Source of the DNA: Casimicrobium huifangae
Lineage (GTDB): Bacteria > Pseudomonadota > Gammaproteobacteria > Burkholderiales > Casimicrobiaceae
DNA: 64,000 nucleotides
Reading direction: 5' to 3'
Assembly (NCBI RefSeq): GCF_009746125.1
Contig: NZ_CP041352.1
Location: 3,518,436-3,582,435, forward strand
The position numbers were made by a program, and so were the translations under genes. The notes beneath the pieces were generated by a model. That model saw nothing but the letters and a program-made list of their open reading frames with translations. It did not search any database and was not told the DNA's origin. Positions within the stretch are counted from its first letter, which is position 1, and each line of letters starts with the position of its first letter. Shown piece by piece: positions 44,821-55,058 of this stretch.

Positions 44821-45795
44821 ATGAGCAGCAAACCCATCATCGTCGTGCTCGACGACTTCGAGCGCGTCGCGACAGAATTCGCCGACTGGAGCGACGTCCA
44901 CGCGCGCGCGGACGTACGCATCCATCGGGCCCCCTTGCGCGGCGACGCCCTGCTGCAGGCGCTCACACCGGCGGACGTGATCGTGTTGATGCGCGATCGC
45001 ACCGCGCTGCAGGCACCGTTGATTGCGCAGTTGCCCAACCTGAAACTGGTCGTGTTCACCGGCACCCGCAACGGCGCGCTCGATACCAAAGCGCTCGCCG
45101 CGCGCGGCATCTCGGTCGCGCATACCGGCTGGGGGCCGAACAAGGATGCCACCACCGAACTGACCTGGGCGCTGATCCTCGCCGCACAGAAGCGCCTGCT
45201 GACGCACGAGGCCGGGCTGCGTCGCGGCGACTGGCGGCCGCTGCCCTCCATGTTGCCGGTACTGCACGGGCAACGCATTGGTGTGGTGGGCCTCGGGGAG
45301 ATCGGCGGTCGCGTAGCGAACGTCGCCCGTGCGTTTGGCATGGAGGTGGTGACGTGGTCGCCAAACATGACCCCCGAACGCGCCGAGGCGAAAGGGGCTC
45401 GCGCGGTCGCCTTCGACGAACTGCTTGCCACCTCTCACATCATCACCACCCATTTGGTAATGGGCCCGGCCACGAAAGGCCTGTTCGGTGCGCCGCAATT
45501 CGCTGCGATGCGAACAGACGCGATCTTCGTCAACACCTCTCGCGCCGGGCTGATCGATGAGGCCGCACTGGTTGCGGCGCTGGCGAAGGGTCGTCCCGGC
45601 GTAGCGGCGCTCGACGTATTCAGCGAGGAGCCATTACCTGTGAGCCATCCGCTGCTCGATGCACCCAATGTGCTGCTCACACCGCACCTCGGCTTTGTCG
45701 CCGAACCGGTGTTCCGCCGCTTCTATGCCGATGCGGTGGAGACGGTCACGGCGTGGCTCGATGGCAAGCCGTTGCCACGCATACTGGCTACTTGA
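44821..45795 (+). CDS. D-2-hydroxyacid dehydrogenase
   Basis: An NAD-dependent dehydrogenase of 324 residues. The nucleotide-binding motif is GVVGLGEIGGRVANVA. The catalytic Arg is in VNTSRAGLID, the Glu in VFSEEPLP and the His in LTPHLGF. It forms a cluster with the racemase-like and Bug genes and ends eight bases into the convergent bufD gene. The substrate is not determined. Confidence 0.92.
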   Translation: MSSKPIIVVLDDFERVATEFADWSDVHARADVRIHRAPLRGDALLQALTPADVIVLMRDRTALQAPLIAQLPNLKLVVFTGTRNGALDTKALAARGISVAHTGWGPNKDATTELTWALILAAQKRLLTHEAGLRRGDWRPLPSMLPVLHGQRIGVVGLGEIGGRVANVARAFGMEVVTWSPNMTPERAEAKGARAVAFDELLATSHIITTHLVMGPATKGLFGAPQFAAMRTDAIFVNTSRAGLIDEAALVAALAKGRPGVAALDVFSEEPLPVSHPLLDAPNVLLTPHLGFVAEPVFRRFYADAVETVTAWLDGKPLPRILAT

Positions 45796-46288
45796 GCCGA
45801 AACCAGTTGTCGAGCGAGATCGTTCCGCCGCCGCGCGCGACCAGATAGAGCAGCGGTGCCGCCCACGACAAGTGCGTCGGCCACGCGTCCGGGTAGACCA
45901 GCGTCTGGATCACGGCGGTCATGCCGAGCAGTCCGAGCGCGGCCCAACGGGTGCCCAGGCCCAGAACAAGCAACAGTGGCAGCAGGTGTTCCGCATATGC
46001 CCCGGCATAAGCGGCGATTTCCGGCGGAACCAGTGGCAGCTTGTACTCATCGCGGAACAGCGCGATCGCATTGTCGGTGACGCTGAGCCAACCCTCCACC
46101 TTGGTGCGTCCGGATTGCCAGAACACCGCAGCGATGCCTGCACGCAGTAGCAATGCGATCAGCCACTCGGGGATCGCCTTGTCGAGCAAAGTGGCAGCAC
46201 GGTCCCACAGATGCACAGAGCCCGTACCGTTGGGCAGCTGCGACTGCGAACTGGTTTTGCTTGAGGATGCAATGGATTGAGTATTCAA
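45788..46288 (-). CDS. bufD: DoxX-family membrane protein BufD
   Basis: A 166-residue membrane protein of the DoxX family with about four helices: EWLIALLLRAGIAAVFWQSGRTKVEGW, then AYAEHLLPLLLVLGLGTRWAALGLLGMTAVIQTLVYP. It overlaps bufC by four bases. DoxX proteins accompany bufferin precursor and maturation genes in Caulobacter and related operons; the role there is not firmly established. Confidence 0.88.
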   Translation of the reverse strand: MNTQSIASSSKTSSQSQLPNGTGSVHLWDRAATLLDKAIPEWLIALLLRAGIAAVFWQSGRTKVEGWLSVTDNAIALFRDEYKLPLVPPEIAAYAGAYAEHLLPLLLVLGLGTRWAALGLLGMTAVIQTLVYPDAWPTHLSWAAPLLYLVARGGGTISLDNWFRLK

Positions 46289-47085
46289 GATGACTCCCCT
46301 GCGGGCGCTGCCGTGAGCGCGCCTTGATTTAACAGTTGATGAAATGCGCGCCCCGTAGTCTCGGCACCAAAGCGGCTAGCCGTCTGCTCAATCGCGTCTG
46401 CGATGCCAACGTCGGTAGTGAACGCTGCAACAAGCGCAACGGTGGCCTCGTCGCACACCGACCAAAAGACCGCGCCGTGCGGCCGTGTCAGCAGCGCGCC
46501 GGCGCCTTGCCATTCGATAGTGGACAGATCGTCCACACCGGAACGCGACGCACACCACAACTGCGCTGCCGGAGTGTCGGCAAACCAGAAGGCGCGCGTG
46601 GCCGGGTGCGGATAGATGCGCTCGCCGCTGCCTAACAACGCTTGCATGTTGGCAACGGTGAGGGCCGACGCGTCGGCCGCGCAATGTGCCTCGGTCCAGG
46701 CGCGATCCAGCGTGGCGATGGCCGGCAGATATGGCAAGTCGGCAGAGGCCTCCAGCGTGGCGAGAAAAGCATCGAAGCCAGCGCCATAGTCCAGCAAACA
46801 CGGGTTGGCTGGTGGCTGTTCATCGAGAAATCGGTGCGCAGCCGCAGCAAACCATTCGTCACCGACGAGCTGCACCACCGTCGGGTAGTTAGCCCGCAGC
46901 GCGTCCAGCGCGCCAAGGCGCACCGTGTTGCGGTACACGCGAAAAGCCGTTTGCTTCAGCGGTGCATCGTTTGCAGCCGTGCCACTGTCGTCACCATCGA
47001 GCGCCGCGATCATCGATGCGATGAACTGCGCATCAGCCGTCGCGTGCGAATTCGCGAGCGGTCGAACTGGTGCGGCACTCAGCAT
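46285..47085 (-). CDS. bufC: DUF2063 bufferin maturation partner BufC
   Basis: A 266-residue protein with an N-terminal DUF2063 domain: TAFRVYRNTVRLGALDALRANYPTVVQLVGDEWF, then LLDYGAGFDAFLATLEASADLPYLPAIATLDRAW. Proteins of this family partner a DUF692 enzyme in modifying the Cys of a precursor peptide. It overlaps bufB by seven bases and bufD by four. Confidence 0.9.
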   Translation of the reverse strand: MLSAAPVRPLANSHATADAQFIASMIAALDGDDSGTAANDAPLKQTAFRVYRNTVRLGALDALRANYPTVVQLVGDEWFAAAAHRFLDEQPPANPCLLDYGAGFDAFLATLEASADLPYLPAIATLDRAWTEAHCAADASALTVANMQALLGSGERIYPHPATRAFWFADTPAAQLWCASRSGVDDLSTIEWQGAGALLTRPHGAVFWSVCDEATVALVAAFTTDVGIADAIEQTASRFGAETTGRAFHQLLNQGALTAAPAGESS

Positions 47086-47978
47086 GTCACTGCCGCCTCG
47101 TTGGCCCGCAGCAAGTCGCTGGCGGCAACAGGTGCGGCTTCACGCAGGTGCCGGTGCGCCTTATCGCGCTCTGCCAGCAGTTCGTCGAACGACGGCAAAT
47201 TGCCATCGCGTTCGATCAGGGTCGGAATCGGACCGGTCACCGCGAGCACCTGGCGATGCAGCGCCCACACCGCTTCGCTGACCGGCTGGTCATGCGAATC
47301 GATCAGCAGCGACTCACCCAACTGCGGGTCCGCCGTGTAGCCGGCCAGATGAATTTCAGCAACCGACGCGAGCGGGTACGCTGCCAGATAGGCCGCTGGT
47401 TCGGTATGCAGGTTGCGTGCACTGATCCACACGTTGTTGAGATCAAGCAACAGCGCACACCCGGTGCGGGCTACAAGCTCGCGCAGAAAATCGGTTTCGC
47501 TGAACGAATGGCCAACGATGTCGACGTAGTGCGTCGGGTTCTCAATCGCCACGCGACGCCGGAGCAGCGACTGCATGCGGTCAATGCGATCGGCCACACG
47601 CTGCAAGGCGTCCTGCGTGCGCAGGAATGGCAGCAGATCGGGAAAGTAGCGCCCGTCGTGGACCGACCACGCCAAGTGCTCCGACACCAGTGCGGGTTCA
47701 AAGCGATTGACCAGTCGTTGCAGAGCCTTGAGATGCCCTTCATCGCGCGGTGTGACACCACCCGATGACAGGCCCACGCCATGCAGCGACAGCGGATGCT
47801 CACGACGGATGCGCTCCAGCCACTGCAGCCGCGGCCCACCGGCCACCATGTAATTCTCCGGGTGCACTTCGAACCACAAGCCCTCGCATGCGCCGGCGCG
47901 GGAGGAGAGCGCGTCGTCGTAGTACTCGGGTTTGAGCGAAAGGCCGGCAGTCAACATGGTGGCGGTGGACGGTGACAC
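47079..47978 (-). CDS. bufB: DUF692 (MNIO) iron oxidase BufB
   Basis: A TIM-barrel DUF692 enzyme of 299 residues, starting with GTG; an ATG seven codons in is also possible. Metal-ligand regions: GLWFEVHPENYMV, LSLHGVGLSS, SEHLAWSVHDG, IENPTHYVDI, LLDLNNVWISARN and EIHLAGYTAD. Multinuclear non-heme iron enzymes of this family install heterocycles from Cys in copper-binding peptides (methanobactin MbnB, oxazolin HvfB, bufferins). Its substrate is likely the BufA precursor encoded directly upstream. Confidence 0.93.
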   Translation of the reverse strand: MSPSTATMLTAGLSLKPEYYDDALSSRAGACEGLWFEVHPENYMVAGGPRLQWLERIRREHPLSLHGVGLSSGGVTPRDEGHLKALQRLVNRFEPALVSEHLAWSVHDGRYFPDLLPFLRTQDALQRVADRIDRMQSLLRRRVAIENPTHYVDIVGHSFSETDFLRELVARTGCALLLDLNNVWISARNLHTEPAAYLAAYPLASVAEIHLAGYTADPQLGESLLIDSHDQPVSEAVWALHRQVLAVTGPIPTLIERDGNLPSFDELLAERDKAHRHLREAAPVAASDLLRANEAAVTC

Positions 47979-47999
47979 GATGGATCGGCGCAGTCGTGA

Positions 48000-48284
48000 T
48001 TACTTGGACGCGACCGGCGTCAGCGAACCATTGCCCTTCGGCGTCTTGATCGTGGTGCAGGTACCCTTCGGCACAAACTTCCACGCGTTGCCCTGATAGT
48101 CAGTCTTGCTGGTGCCCGCGCAGGTGGTGCCGGGGCCGGCAGCGCAATCGTTCTTGCCCGCCATCGAAACGCCGTAGCACTTTTCCTTGTCCATATTGGC
48201 CTTGTCGTCGGCGTGGGCGACGGCAAACATCGTGGAGAGTGCAGCAGCGCCAATGGCGGAGAGGGCGATACGATGGGTGTTCAT
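48000..48284 (-). CDS. bufA: DUF2282 bufferin precursor BufA
   Basis: A 94-residue protein from ATG at 48284 with AGGAG upstream. The signal peptide ends near AVAHA. The mature part holds four Cys at 36, 47, 55 and 76 ([20 protein letters not shown], then TTCAGTS and [11 protein letters not shown]). The DUF2282 family contains the periplasmic copper-binding RiPP bufferins of Caulobacter. The gene order with DUF692, DUF2063 and DoxX is the same. An ECF-type promoter motif precedes it. Confidence 0.92.
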
Positions 48285-48346
48285 GAGAGACTCCTGAGTG
48301 GATTTGGGATTTGAGTAACAGCGCAAACTTGCGTTGTGACCTCAAA

Positions 48347-48373
48347 TTCGTGGGCCGTGGCAGTTTGGTTACA
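48347..48373 (-). promoter_or_regulatory. ECF sigma promoter motif before bufA
   Basis: On the minus strand TGTAACC (48373-48367), 16 bases, then CGAA (48350-48347). From memory this is the GTAACC-N16-CGAA pattern given for SigF-controlled promoters in Caulobacter. The expected start site is about 55 bases before the bufA ATG. A looser copy, TGTAAC-N17-CGAA on the plus strand (48405-48431), faces the sigma factor gene but would leave almost no leader. Confidence 0.65.
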
Positions 48374-48447
48374 CAACCCTCTTAAAATTATTTTTTCGGC
48401 GGCCTGTAACTTTTCCGCCCCGCAACGCGAACTGGAAGGAAGCCCGA

Positions 48448-48993
48448 TTGCAGGACCGCGAAACCGAACTGCGCCCGCTGATGATTGCTGCTTGCAATGG
48501 CAATCAGCAGGCGTACGTGGCGCTGCTGTCGGACATGGCAAAGCTGTTGCGCGGCTTCTTCCGCAAGCGGATGCTGTCGGTCCCCGATGATGTGGAAGAT
48601 GTGGTTCAGGAAGTGTTGATCGCCATTCACAATCAGCGCCATACCTACGATGCCGGCCAGCCGGTCACCGCCTGGGTGTTCGGGATTGCGCGCTACAAGC
48701 TCGCCGACTTCTATCGCCGTCGCGGCAGTCAGGGCAGCGACCATGTCGACATTGACGACGCGGCGGAATGGCTGGCCACCGAGGATCACGACGCGCACGA
48801 TGCCCGCCGAGATGTGGGCCTGCTGCTCGACGAACTGCCTGAGAAGCAGCGCGACGCCATCCGCTGCGTAAAGATCGAGGGGCTCAGCATCGCCGAGGCG
48901 GCCGCGCAGACCGGGCAGTCGGAATCGTCGGTGAAGGTGGGCATCCATCGCGGGCTGAAGGCGCTGGCAGCGCGCATGCGGGGTGCGGCATGA
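48448..48993 (+). CDS. ECF sigma factor (SigF-like)
   Basis: A 181-residue ECF sigma factor starting at TTG 48448, with AAGGA seven bases upstream. Region 2: MAKLLRGFFRKRMLSVPDDVEDVVQEVLIAIHNQRHTYDAGQPVTAWVFGIARYKLADFYRR. Region 4: LDELPEKQRDAIRCVKIEGLSIAEAAAQTGQSESSVKVGIHRGLKAL. It overlaps the anti-sigma gene by four bases and is divergent from bufABCD, so it most likely controls that operon. Confidence 0.92.
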   Translation: MQDRETELRPLMIAACNGNQQAYVALLSDMAKLLRGFFRKRMLSVPDDVEDVVQEVLIAIHNQRHTYDAGQPVTAWVFGIARYKLADFYRRRGSQGSDHVDIDDAAEWLATEDHDAHDARRDVGLLLDELPEKQRDAIRCVKIEGLSIAEAAAQTGQSESSVKVGIHRGLKALAARMRGAA

Positions 48994-49631
48994 AGACCGA
49001 CGACCTGATCACCCTGCTCGCCCGCAACGAACCAGCGCCGGATCGCGCGGCGCTCAGCCGCACGCTGCTCTCACTGGTGGCAGGCGGCGTGCTGGTGTCG
49101 TTCCTGTTTGTGTACTTTCTGCTGCAACTCAACCCGGCCCTGGGCACCATCGTGGCGAGCCTCTGGTTCTGGGTGCGCTTTGCCTTTATCGCGTCGCTGG
49201 CGGGCCTGACCTGGTGGACGCTGCGCCGTCTGGGCAAGCCGGGCGTGGCGGCGCAGGTGCGCTGGTGGCCGTTGCTGGTGCCGTTTGTTGCGCTGGGCCT
49301 GCTGGCCTCCGTGCTGCTGATGCAGGCACCGCCCGAAACACGGATGGCGATGCTGATGGGGACCACCTGGCGCGTCTGCTCGATGCTGATCGCGCTGGTG
49401 TCGTTGCCGCTGCTGGTGGCGGCTGTCCTGATCGTGCGCCACTTCGCGCCGACCCGCCTGCGCTTCACCGGCGCCGTGTTGGGCCTGTTTGCCGGTGCGA
49501 TGGCCGCGCTGGTTTACACGCTGCATTGCCCCGAGCTGTCACCCGCATTTCTGGTGGTCTGGTACAGCCTCGGCATGCTGATTCCCGCCGCCGTCGGTGC
49601 CGCGCTGGGCGAGCGCCTCCTACGTTGGTAA
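48990..49631 (+). CDS. NrsF-type (DUF1109) membrane anti-sigma factor
   Basis: A 213-residue protein with a short cytosolic N-terminus (MKTDDLITLLARNEPAPDRAALSRTL) and six membrane helices. A Cys occurs in CSMLIALVSLPLLV and another in the loop LHCPELSPAF. DUF1109 proteins hold an ECF sigma factor at the membrane and release it on heavy-metal stress in Caulobacter. It is paired with the sigma gene by overlap. Confidence 0.9.
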   Translation: MKTDDLITLLARNEPAPDRAALSRTLLSLVAGGVLVSFLFVYFLLQLNPALGTIVASLWFWVRFAFIASLAGLTWWTLRRLGKPGVAAQVRWWPLLVPFVALGLLASVLLMQAPPETRMAMLMGTTWRVCSMLIALVSLPLLVAAVLIVRHFAPTRLRFTGAVLGLFAGAMAALVYTLHCPELSPAFLVVWYSLGMLIPAAVGAALGERLLRW

Positions 49632-49803: not shown

Positions 49804-49859
49804 GTGCCACGAGCGACCCATTTGTGGCACAATTTGCGAAAATTGACACATTGTGGCAC
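49804..49859 (+). promoter_or_regulatory. Operator/promoter region of the toxin-antitoxin pair
   Basis: TTGTGGCAC occurs twice, at 49822 and 49851, and its inverse GTGCCAC at 49804. Between the direct copies is CAATTT-GCGA-AAATTG (49830-49845), an exact inverted repeat overlapping a TTGACA -35 box (49843-49848). This is a likely site for binding by the antitoxin or the toxin-antitoxin complex. Confidence 0.55.
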
Positions 49860-49903
49860 CGCAGCAACTCCGTGTTGCGGAATACGCCCCTCACCCCTCC
49901 ACC

Positions 49904-50140
49904 ATGCGCACCCTCGGCATCCGCGAAGTTCGCCAGCGTTACGAGATCCTCAAGGAAACGCTCGACGCTGAAGGCGAAGTGATCCTCACCCACCACGGCA
50001 AGCCGTTCGCACGGGTGTTGCCGATCGAGCCAGTGAAACCGCGCAAGCGCTGGAAGCCTCACCCGGAGCTGGCGGACATTCCGTTTCAGCAAGTGCCGAG
50101 CGAAGTGCTGCTGGCTGAAGAACGGGAGCGTGACATTTGA
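49904..50140 (+). CDS. Phd/YefM-type antitoxin
   Basis: A 78-residue antitoxin: MRTLGIREVRQRYEILKETLDAEGEVILTHHGKPFARVLPI is a typical Phd DNA-binding fold, and the Arg/Lys/Pro-rich C-terminus should wrap the toxin. Its stop overlaps the toxin start. It is likely to repress its own promoter through the GTGGCAC repeats upstream. Confidence 0.85.
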   Translation: MRTLGIREVRQRYEILKETLDAEGEVILTHHGKPFARVLPIEPVKPRKRWKPHPELADIPFQQVPSEVLLAEERERDI

Positions 50141-50586
50141 TCTATCTCGACACCAGCTCTCTGACCAAAGCCTATGTCAGCGAGCGCGGCAGTGACGACG
50201 TAAGACTGATGCTGGAGCACACTGTGGAGCCCATCTGCATCAGCACGCTGTCGCTCGTCGAGTTCCGATGCGCGCTGGCACGCCGCACGCGGGCGCTGAT
50301 GCTCACTGAACCCGATTCCCAGCGCATCTGGGCGAGCTTTGAGGGCGATGTCGATGACGGCATCTTCGACGTTCTTCCCGTTGACAACGACGACCTGATC
50401 AACGCGCGCCGCCTTATCGACGCCGTTGCGCCGCTACCGTTGAAAGCACTCGACGCACTTCATCTGGCTGTCGTCAGGCGCGCGCACGAGCGTGACGGAA
50501 CAAGCTTCATCACCTCTGATGCACAGCAGGCGGCTGCCGCCGCCGCGCTCGGCATCGCCACAAAGACCATTGCACTGACACTTTAA
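50137..50586 (+). CDS. PIN-domain toxin (VapC-like)
   Basis: A 149-residue PIN ribonuclease starting at TTG in the antitoxin stop (TTGA). Acidic metal ligands: D5 in [13 protein letters not shown]42 in LVEFRCAL, D106 in ALDALHLA and D128 in FITSDAQQ. It is probably an RNA-cleaving toxin controlled by the upstream antitoxin. No damage to the reading frame is visible. Confidence 0.87.
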
Positions 50587-54482: not shown

Positions 54483-54740
54483 GCGGATGATTGTAGGGAT
54501 GCTGCTGCAATCCGCAACGGCTGCCACGCTATCGAAAGATATTCGCTTGCCGCTGTAACCGATCAAGCCAAATCCGCGAATAGAGGGGGTGGCTGCGGCA
54601 ACCCTCGCCAGCCGCCACGGCTCTCAATCAAATGAATTCAGCCGCAAGCGATCCGATTCGACTTGGGTGGGGTTTCCTTTGCCTGCGAGATCCGTCACGC
54701 GCAGTCAACTTCCATGCAATCTCTATTGAAAGGTTATGAA

Positions 54741-55058
54741 ATGAAACATATCAAAGGCGTTCTCACCGCAATGGCACTCACCGGAATGCTGGGAGCAGCG
54801 ACGCCGGCACTCGCTGTGAACGACGCGCTCTACGGCAGCGAGCAGTGGTCACGCGAGTACATGACGAGCGTGCGCCCGCTCGTCGCCAAGCTGGCGATGG
54901 CGGACAAGAAGAAGGTGATGGACATGGAGATGGCCATCATTCGCATGGAATCTGACCACGCGATGACCATGATGAAGATGGACACCGACCACAAGATGGC
55001 CATTGCCAAGATGCGCCGCGAACTGGAGGAATTCATTTACGGCAAGGGCGCCTTCTAA
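54741..55058 (+). CDS. Small secreted Met/His-rich protein
   Basis: The protein has 105 residues from ATG at 54741 with AAAGG upstream. The signal peptide ends near ATPALAV. The mature protein is a charged helix very rich in Met and Lys/Asp-His: MDMEMAIIRMESDHAMTMMK, then MDTDHKMAIAKMRRELEEF. Met/His arrays of this kind occur in periplasmic copper- or silver-binding proteins, but no specific family was recognised. The following 278 bases, to 55336, show no gene or RNA that I can support. Confidence 0.75.
   Translation: MKHIKGVLTAMALTGMLGAATPALAVNDALYGSEQWSREYMTSVRPLVAKLAMADKKKVMDMEMAIIRMESDHAMTMMKMDTDHKMAIAKMRRELEEFIYGKGAF

Follow-up and report, generated by a model that had tools for sequence, protein, structure and literature searches.

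A stretch of 64,000 nucleotides of the Casimicrobium huifangae genome (contig NZ_CP041352.1; hereafter the window) carries a putative bufferin operon, bufABCD, lying back to back with genes for an extracytoplasmic function (ECF) sigma factor and an anti-sigma factor of the NrsF type. This arrangement raises the question of whether the sigma factor controls the bufferin genes and, if it does, which other genes it may control. Judging from the sequence, we consider it highly probable (about 0.88) that the locus is a Buf1 bufferin operon under the control of a SigF-NrsF pair of the ECF16 type. The genes, their conserved residues and the promoter boxes are established below.

The bufferin operon and the sigma pair facing it

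The locus consists of six genes:

45788-46288, minus strand: bufD, DoxX-family membrane protein (PF07681, 64.8 bits, cut-off 23.6)
46285-47085, minus strand: bufC, DUF2063 partner protein (PF09836, 69.4 bits, cut-off 27.2)
47079-47978, minus strand: bufB, MNIO (DUF692) maturase (PF05114, 309 bits, cut-off 25)
48000-48284, minus strand: bufA, Buf1 (DUF2282) bufferin precursor of 94 amino acids (PF10048, 90.9 bits, cut-off 22.4)
48448-48993, plus strand: sigF, ECF sigma factor with a TTG start at 48448 (Sigma70_r2, 41 bits, cut-off 24; r4_2, 49.3 bits, cut-off 25.7)
48990-49631, plus strand: nrsF, DUF1109/NrsF anti-sigma factor (PF06532, 199.4 bits, cut-off 26.8)

The original prediction, made from the sequence alone, had named a bufferin operon divergent from a sigma gene and a DUF1109 gene, and this identification was right. 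All six genes lie on the strands it gave, every Pfam family is over its cut-off, and BufB also reaches the NCBIfam model NF050167, 'MNIO family bufferin maturase' (343.3 bits, cut-off 310). The minus-strand run from bufA to bufD spans 45788-48284 and has the gene order of Buf1 clusters, with the DoxX gene last. The four genes had also been described as overlapping; bufB and bufC do overlap by 7 bases and bufC and bufD by 4, whereas 21 bases separate bufA from bufB. PF05114, PF10048 and PF06532 have one match each in the 4.47 Mb genome, all of them at this locus. Several narrower NCBIfam models were not reached: BufC scored 24.9 bits with the HvfC model (cut-off 142), BufD 51.8 bits with the HvfX model (cut-off 80) and BufA 20.7 bits with the BufA2 model (cut-off 60), the last value indicating that the precursor is Buf1 and not Buf2.

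The polar residues H66, H101, E146, D179, N182, H210, D227, H229 and E256 of BufB are each present in 83 of 83 profile-matched rows of relatives, and such residues are iron ligands in MNIO structures. A PDB sequence search with BufB returned alignable MNIO entries, including 3bww, 8hci, 7dz9 and 7fc0, and PDB sequence searches with BufC and with BufA returned no relative.

BufA starts at the ATG at 48284 with a hydrophobic segment ending in A-H-A, judged by eye to be a putative signal peptide. Its four cysteines, C36, C47, C55 and C76, are retained among relatives (C36 in 78 of 79 profile-matched rows, the other three in 79 of 79). All four had been proposed to be available for heterocycle formation. 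They are present as claimed, but in Buf1 peptides the central two cysteines are modified while the outer two are joined in a disulphide (PMC12452194), so that two of the four cysteines, rather than all, should become heterocycles. By homology, C47 and C55 only should be converted, and C36 and C76 should form the disulphide. Bufferins are reported to carry thiooxazoles, which absorb at ~305 nm (PMC12668002), and to sequester copper (PMC12452194).

On the other side of the gap, SigF exceeds the cut-off of the NCBIfam model PRK12539 (200.3 bits, cut-off 171) and stays below that of PRK12536 (245.8 bits, cut-off 250); we infer from its anti-sigma factor and its promoter that it is of the ECF16 type. 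The nrsF gene lies downstream of sigF, overlapping it by ATGA, and both are divergent from bufABCD. NrsF falls short of the stricter equivalog model NF042994 (130.8 bits, cut-off 300). Among relatives, its C130 is found in 69 of 69 profile-matched rows and its C180 in 68 of 69, and the two match by position C131 and C181 of Caulobacter NrsF, whose replacement raises SigF-dependent expression (PMC3511200).

Promoter boxes at the locus and among relatives

The published SigF promoter of Caulobacter is GTAACC-N16-CGAA (PMC3511200). We searched with a strict box, GTAACY-N16-CGAA, and, for relatives and the genus, with a relaxed box (GTAACN, a spacer of 15-17, CGAA). The strict box occurs three times in the window, whereas 100 dinucleotide-shuffled versions of the same sequence contain 0.04 matches on average:

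48347-48372, minus strand: GTAACC-N16-CGAA, bufABCD box, 62 bases before the bufA ATG
48406-48431, plus strand: GTAACT-N16-CGAA, sigF-nrsF box, 16 bases before the TTG start
54555-54580, plus strand: GTAACC-N16-CGAA, third box, 160 bases before a gene for a Met-rich peptide

The 163-base gap between bufA and sigF therefore holds two SigF-type boxes that face outwards. These boxes, together with the possible further targets considered below, are additions to the original prediction. The short leader of sigF is not unusual, as the transcript start of ecfF in Bradyrhizobium overlaps the start codon (PMC3420878).

To place the locus among relatives, named genomes were scanned with BufB and the best 80 of 498 relatives were used, a set selected by BufB. 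Seventy of these 80 have at least 2.3 kb upstream, and sigma and NrsF genes lie upstream on the opposite strand in 60 of the 70, including Variovorax, Xenophilus, Polaromonas, Ramlibacter, Massilia, Cupriavidus, Collimonas, Pseudomonas and Brevundimonas. In 51 of those 60 the pair lies no more than 700 bases from the bufB match, which leaves room for at most bufA in between, and eight of the ten genomes that lack the pair nearby have an NrsF gene elsewhere. The pair is adjacent in 56 of the best 80 loci; the relaxed box is present on the bufA side in 48 of these, on the sigF side in 53 and on both sides in 45, as against 0.25% per side in simple shuffles of the intergenic regions, the 56 loci being related and therefore not independent of one another. 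L041, the nearest relative (BufB 72% identical), and contig 279 of a congener, G003, appear to be one and the same record, since the box sequences are the same. A further layout was seen in Asticcacaulis (L111, L116, L119), where two bufB-bufC sets lie on opposite strands and sigF-nrsF follows one set without facing bufA.

The joining of the two parts side by side in a betaproteobacterium had been singled out in the original prediction, but it is not a new link. It is seen in the 60 named loci above, a survey of Buf1 clusters recorded sigma and NrsF genes in them (PMC12452194), and three organisms with such a locus, the betaproteobacterium Cupriavidus metallidurans among them, are already in print, so that the locus is a further example of a known system. 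In Caulobacter crescentus, sigF-nrsF (CC3253-CC3252) adjoins the bufferin 1 operon CC3254-CC3257, giving the same six adjoining gene families (PMC3511200, PMC8224329). The likeness extends to the promoter sequence, to the two conserved cysteines of NrsF and to msrP (CC2748), which is in the regulon (PMC3511200, PMC8224329), and copper induces this regulon, MsrPQ included, a sigF mutant being copper-sensitive (PMC8224329). Caulobacter differs in having a second SigF-dependent DUF692 operon, whereas C. huifangae has only one MNIO gene, and in that its regulon tables, in the parts available to us, list no Met-rich peptide. In C. metallidurans, the operon gigPABT is divergent from rpoQ-rsqA, genes for an ECF sigma factor and a putative anti-sigma factor (PMC10304878). 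GigP is a peptide with four cysteines and, like BufA, 94 amino acids, and is followed by GigA, GigB (DUF2063) and GigT (DoxX-like); copper and gold induce the operon (PMC10304878), which has been called the same cluster as that of Caulobacter (PMC8224329). Here the difference is that sigma control is assumed and that rpoQ-rsqA reportedly depends on the housekeeping sigma factor (PMC10304878). In the alphaproteobacterium Sinorhizobium meliloti, the ECF16 pair RpoE7-EcfR7 is divergent from SMb20530-20527, which includes DUF692 and DUF2063 genes; ECF16 boxes lie on both sides, and RpoE7 activates both the divergent operon and its own, although the inducer was not found there (PMC6180224).

Several points weigh against control of the bufferin genes by SigF in response to copper. 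The Caulobacter sigF promoter does not depend on SigF alone, and sigF is dispensable for resistance to chromate or cadmium (PMC3511200). In C. metallidurans, metal-treated cells expressed gig more strongly once rpoQ had been deleted, no promoter could be located upstream of gig, and Gig contributes little to copper tolerance (PMC10304878). Neither rpoE7 nor its target responded to H2O2, cadmium or chromate in S. meliloti (PMC6180224). One of the two boxes is absent in 11 of the 56 relatives, and in the C. huifangae genome the strict box is not enriched, as it has 14 matches and the reversed pattern 18. The weight of the box therefore rests on position and conservation, and only boxes at promoter positions are counted. 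We rejected the genome-wide motif scan as a finder of the regulon, as it is unusable without these two properties. Four of the 14 matches point at bufA, sigF, msrP and the Met-rich gene, a fifth lies ~35 bases before an open reading frame of the TctC type (in L011), and by eye the remaining nine are inside open reading frames or have no clear gene downstream.

The operon could also make an unmodified or differently modified periplasmic peptide for a metal other than copper, such as gold, silver, chromium or cadmium. The Caulobacter SigF regulon does respond to chromate and cadmium (PMC3511200), and the gig genes respond to gold and silver (PMC10304878, PMC8224329). However, BufB is over the curated cut-off for bufferin maturases and has all nine of the polar residues listed above, and the thiooxazoles and copper sequestration reported for bufferins (PMC12452194) also argue for copper, so that we regard another metal as very improbable.

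The flanking genes are not counted as part of the bufferin system: one flank encodes a TctC-type receptor and a 2-hydroxyacid dehydrogenase, the other a Phd-like/PIN pair. The latter pair (49853-50586, plus strand, just past nrsF) is of the toxin-antitoxin type, its Phd-like member being below the Pfam cut-off.

Candidate further targets: msrP and a Met-rich peptide gene

Two other genes have the strict box upstream:

L015 462-1415, minus strand: msrP (NF003767, 457 bits, cut-off 207), with a box at 1501-1526, 85 bases before the ATG
54741-55058, plus strand of the window: gene for a secreted-looking Met-rich peptide of 105 amino acids, putative SigF target, preceded by the third box

Downstream of msrP, on the same strand, are a DUF2306 gene and one encoding a ferric-reductase domain, as would be expected of MsrQ. 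For a wider check we picked 30, mostly isolates, of the 65 named loci that have the sigma pair, and found 26 msrP genes over the cut-off in 25 of the 30 genomes. An exact N16 box ends 69-153 bases before the matched region in 13 of the 26 (0.2% in shuffles), all 13 in Variovorax, Xenophilus and Pseudacidovorax, suggesting that the link between bufferin and msrP, backed by experiments in Caulobacter, probably extends to some Burkholderiales.

The Met-rich peptide has 12 methionines in ~80 mature residues, and its gene lies ~5 kb beyond nrsF. It matches no Pfam family over the cut-off and no NCBIfam family, and by eye it contains no MXKDX repeat. Six of 100 relatives, the own genome included, have the family, all in the genus of C. 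huifangae, and no member was found outside the genus: among 399 genomes of the order, a sample without some congeners, only the own genome and one congener carry it. Two Met-rich peptides of known ECF16 systems, MrpX and BcrX, belong to Azospira SigF-NrsF/mrpX-yedYZ and Brucella BcrS-AbcS/bcrXQP, which combine an ECF sigma factor, an NrsF-type anti-sigma factor, a Met-rich peptide and MsrPQ-type genes; the promoter type of the Brucella system is that of C. huifangae, and no bufferin genes are described for these hypochlorite systems in the parts of the two papers available (PMC8315932, PMC4623255). A box upstream and an NrsF regulator in the same genome, two features expected of a gene of the MrpX/BcrX kind, are found for the Met-rich gene.

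The genus offers a natural comparison, with 17 genomes, own included, of which several are incomplete drafts. NrsF is present in seven (G000, G002, G003, G006, G009, G010, G014), and MNIO and DUF2282 genes are present in four (G000, G003, G014, G015). Four of the seven NrsF genomes (G002, G006, G009, G010), most of them drafts, have no MNIO or DUF2282 match. The box, with a spacer of 15 or 16, precedes the Met-rich gene in all four NrsF-positive genomes that carry the gene, own included, and in none of three copies in two NrsF-negative genomes. The msrP gene has a box in four of six NrsF-positive genomes of the genus and in one of 12 NrsF-negative genomes, two of which (G021, G052, no box) are outside the genus. 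A box precedes bufA in G000 and G003 and the second MNIO operon in G014, and both MNIO operons of the NrsF-negative G015 are without one. Within the genus alone, candidate targets with a box thus number 11 of 13 in NrsF-positive against 1 of 15 in NrsF-negative genomes (Fisher, 5e-5), although these events are not independent and the gene list was assembled after the first boxes had been seen. Left out of this tally are bufA of G014 (at a contig end), msrP of G014 (none over the cut-off), msrP of G021 and G052, and a weak Met-rich match in G010 (26 bits, with a box).

Against msrP as a target stand the NrsF-positive genomes G003 and G010, which have no msrP box, the NrsF-negative G012, which has one, and the 13 named msrP genes without a box, in Pseudomonas, Massilia, Ramlibacter, Polaromonas, Cupriavidus and Collimonas. 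In addition, the msrP box of C. huifangae overlaps the signal-peptide codons of the divergent gene, so that codon constraint may help to keep the box in this genus. The product of that divergent gene looks secreted and has weak, sub-threshold matches to hydrolase families.

The third box could be a chance motif before a gene for a secreted protein, with the Met-rich gene unrelated to SigF. The lack of enrichment of the strict box in the genome, the 160 bases that the leader would have, and the small size of the gene family and its restriction to this genus are all in keeping with chance. We nonetheless consider it unlikely, because the box follows the presence of NrsF (four of four against none of three), and because the Met-rich gene of G006 directly faces sigF in divergent orientation, at the place held by bufA in C. 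huifangae.

In G002 and G009, no bufferin or Met-rich gene was seen facing sigF, and msrP is boxed nonetheless. The gene beside sigF seems to be interchangeable, whereas the sigma pair is retained together with its own box. In G010 (L122 2884-4289), sigF-nrsF faces a secreted-looking protein free of cysteine, followed by a DUF2063 gene; since this genome has no MNIO or DUF2282 match, the locus may be a remnant of a bufferin operon or a replaced one. The second MNIO operon of G014 (L201, SigF-type box at 940) has a Cys-rich, perhaps Buf2-like precursor, whereas Buf2 clusters reportedly have no sigma genes close by.

Copper, oxidants and the possible reach of the regulon

Induction, modification, metal binding and sigma dependence are predicted, by analogy with relatives. 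Periplasmic copper or an oxidant would act on NrsF, C130 and C180 taking part, and release SigF, which would then transcribe its own operon and bufABCD from the two outward GTAACY-N16-CGAA boxes. BufBC would oxidise C47 and C55 of BufA to thiooxazoles, the peptide would be exported by Sec and form its C36-C76 disulphide, and the product would chelate periplasmic copper, with BufD as a putative membrane accessory. The same sigma factor would probably also drive msrP and the Met-rich peptide in C. huifangae.

The pair may, however, mainly sense oxidants such as hypochlorite or peroxide and control methionine repair through msrP and the Met-rich peptide, with the bufferin operon as an add-on. The four NrsF genomes of the genus without MNIO or DUF2282, three of which have an msrP box, fit this reading, as does the Met-rich gene at the bufA place in G006. 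The ECF16 pairs of Brucella and Azospira control a Met-rich peptide and MsrPQ against hypochlorite (PMC8315932, PMC4623255), EcfF-OsrA of Bradyrhizobium responds to peroxide and controls methionine sulphoxide reductases (PMC3420878), and a Caulobacter sigF mutant is weaker in stationary-phase resistance to oxidative stress (cited in PMC8224329). On the other hand, the Caulobacter regulon is not induced by generators of reactive oxygen species (PMC3511200) and is induced by copper (PMC8224329), and the bufferin neighbour is kept in most named loci, albeit in the set selected by BufB. We hold oxidant sensing as the main role to be a serious possibility that falls short of probable.

Taken together, the regulon looks like a response to periplasmic copper and methionine oxidation in which bufferin is one interchangeable arm. 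Whether one SigF-NrsF switch runs three arms, namely bufferin, MsrPQ and the Met-rich peptide (as a sacrificial methionine buffer or a Cu(I) binder), appears to us evenly poised. The separate arms have been published, and among the matches listed, in mainly open-access literature, we found no report that joins bufferin with a Met-rich peptide.

The operon itself is a further instance of a copper-stress system already known; the new part is the hint that the bufferin genes share their regulator with a methionine repair enzyme and a little-known Met-rich secreted peptide. A three-armed regulon, if true, would join the ECF16 types of Caulobacter (bufferin) and of Azospira and Brucella (Met-rich peptide) in one genome, and would mean that the gene facing sigF has been swapped between bufferin and Met-rich peptide within one genus. 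Some Burkholderiales would then, like Caulobacter (PMC8224329), run copper chelation and the repair of oxidised methionine as a single programme of one sigma factor, in agreement with the induction of MsrPQ by copper in E. coli, which proceeds via another regulator, CusSR (PMC9302797).

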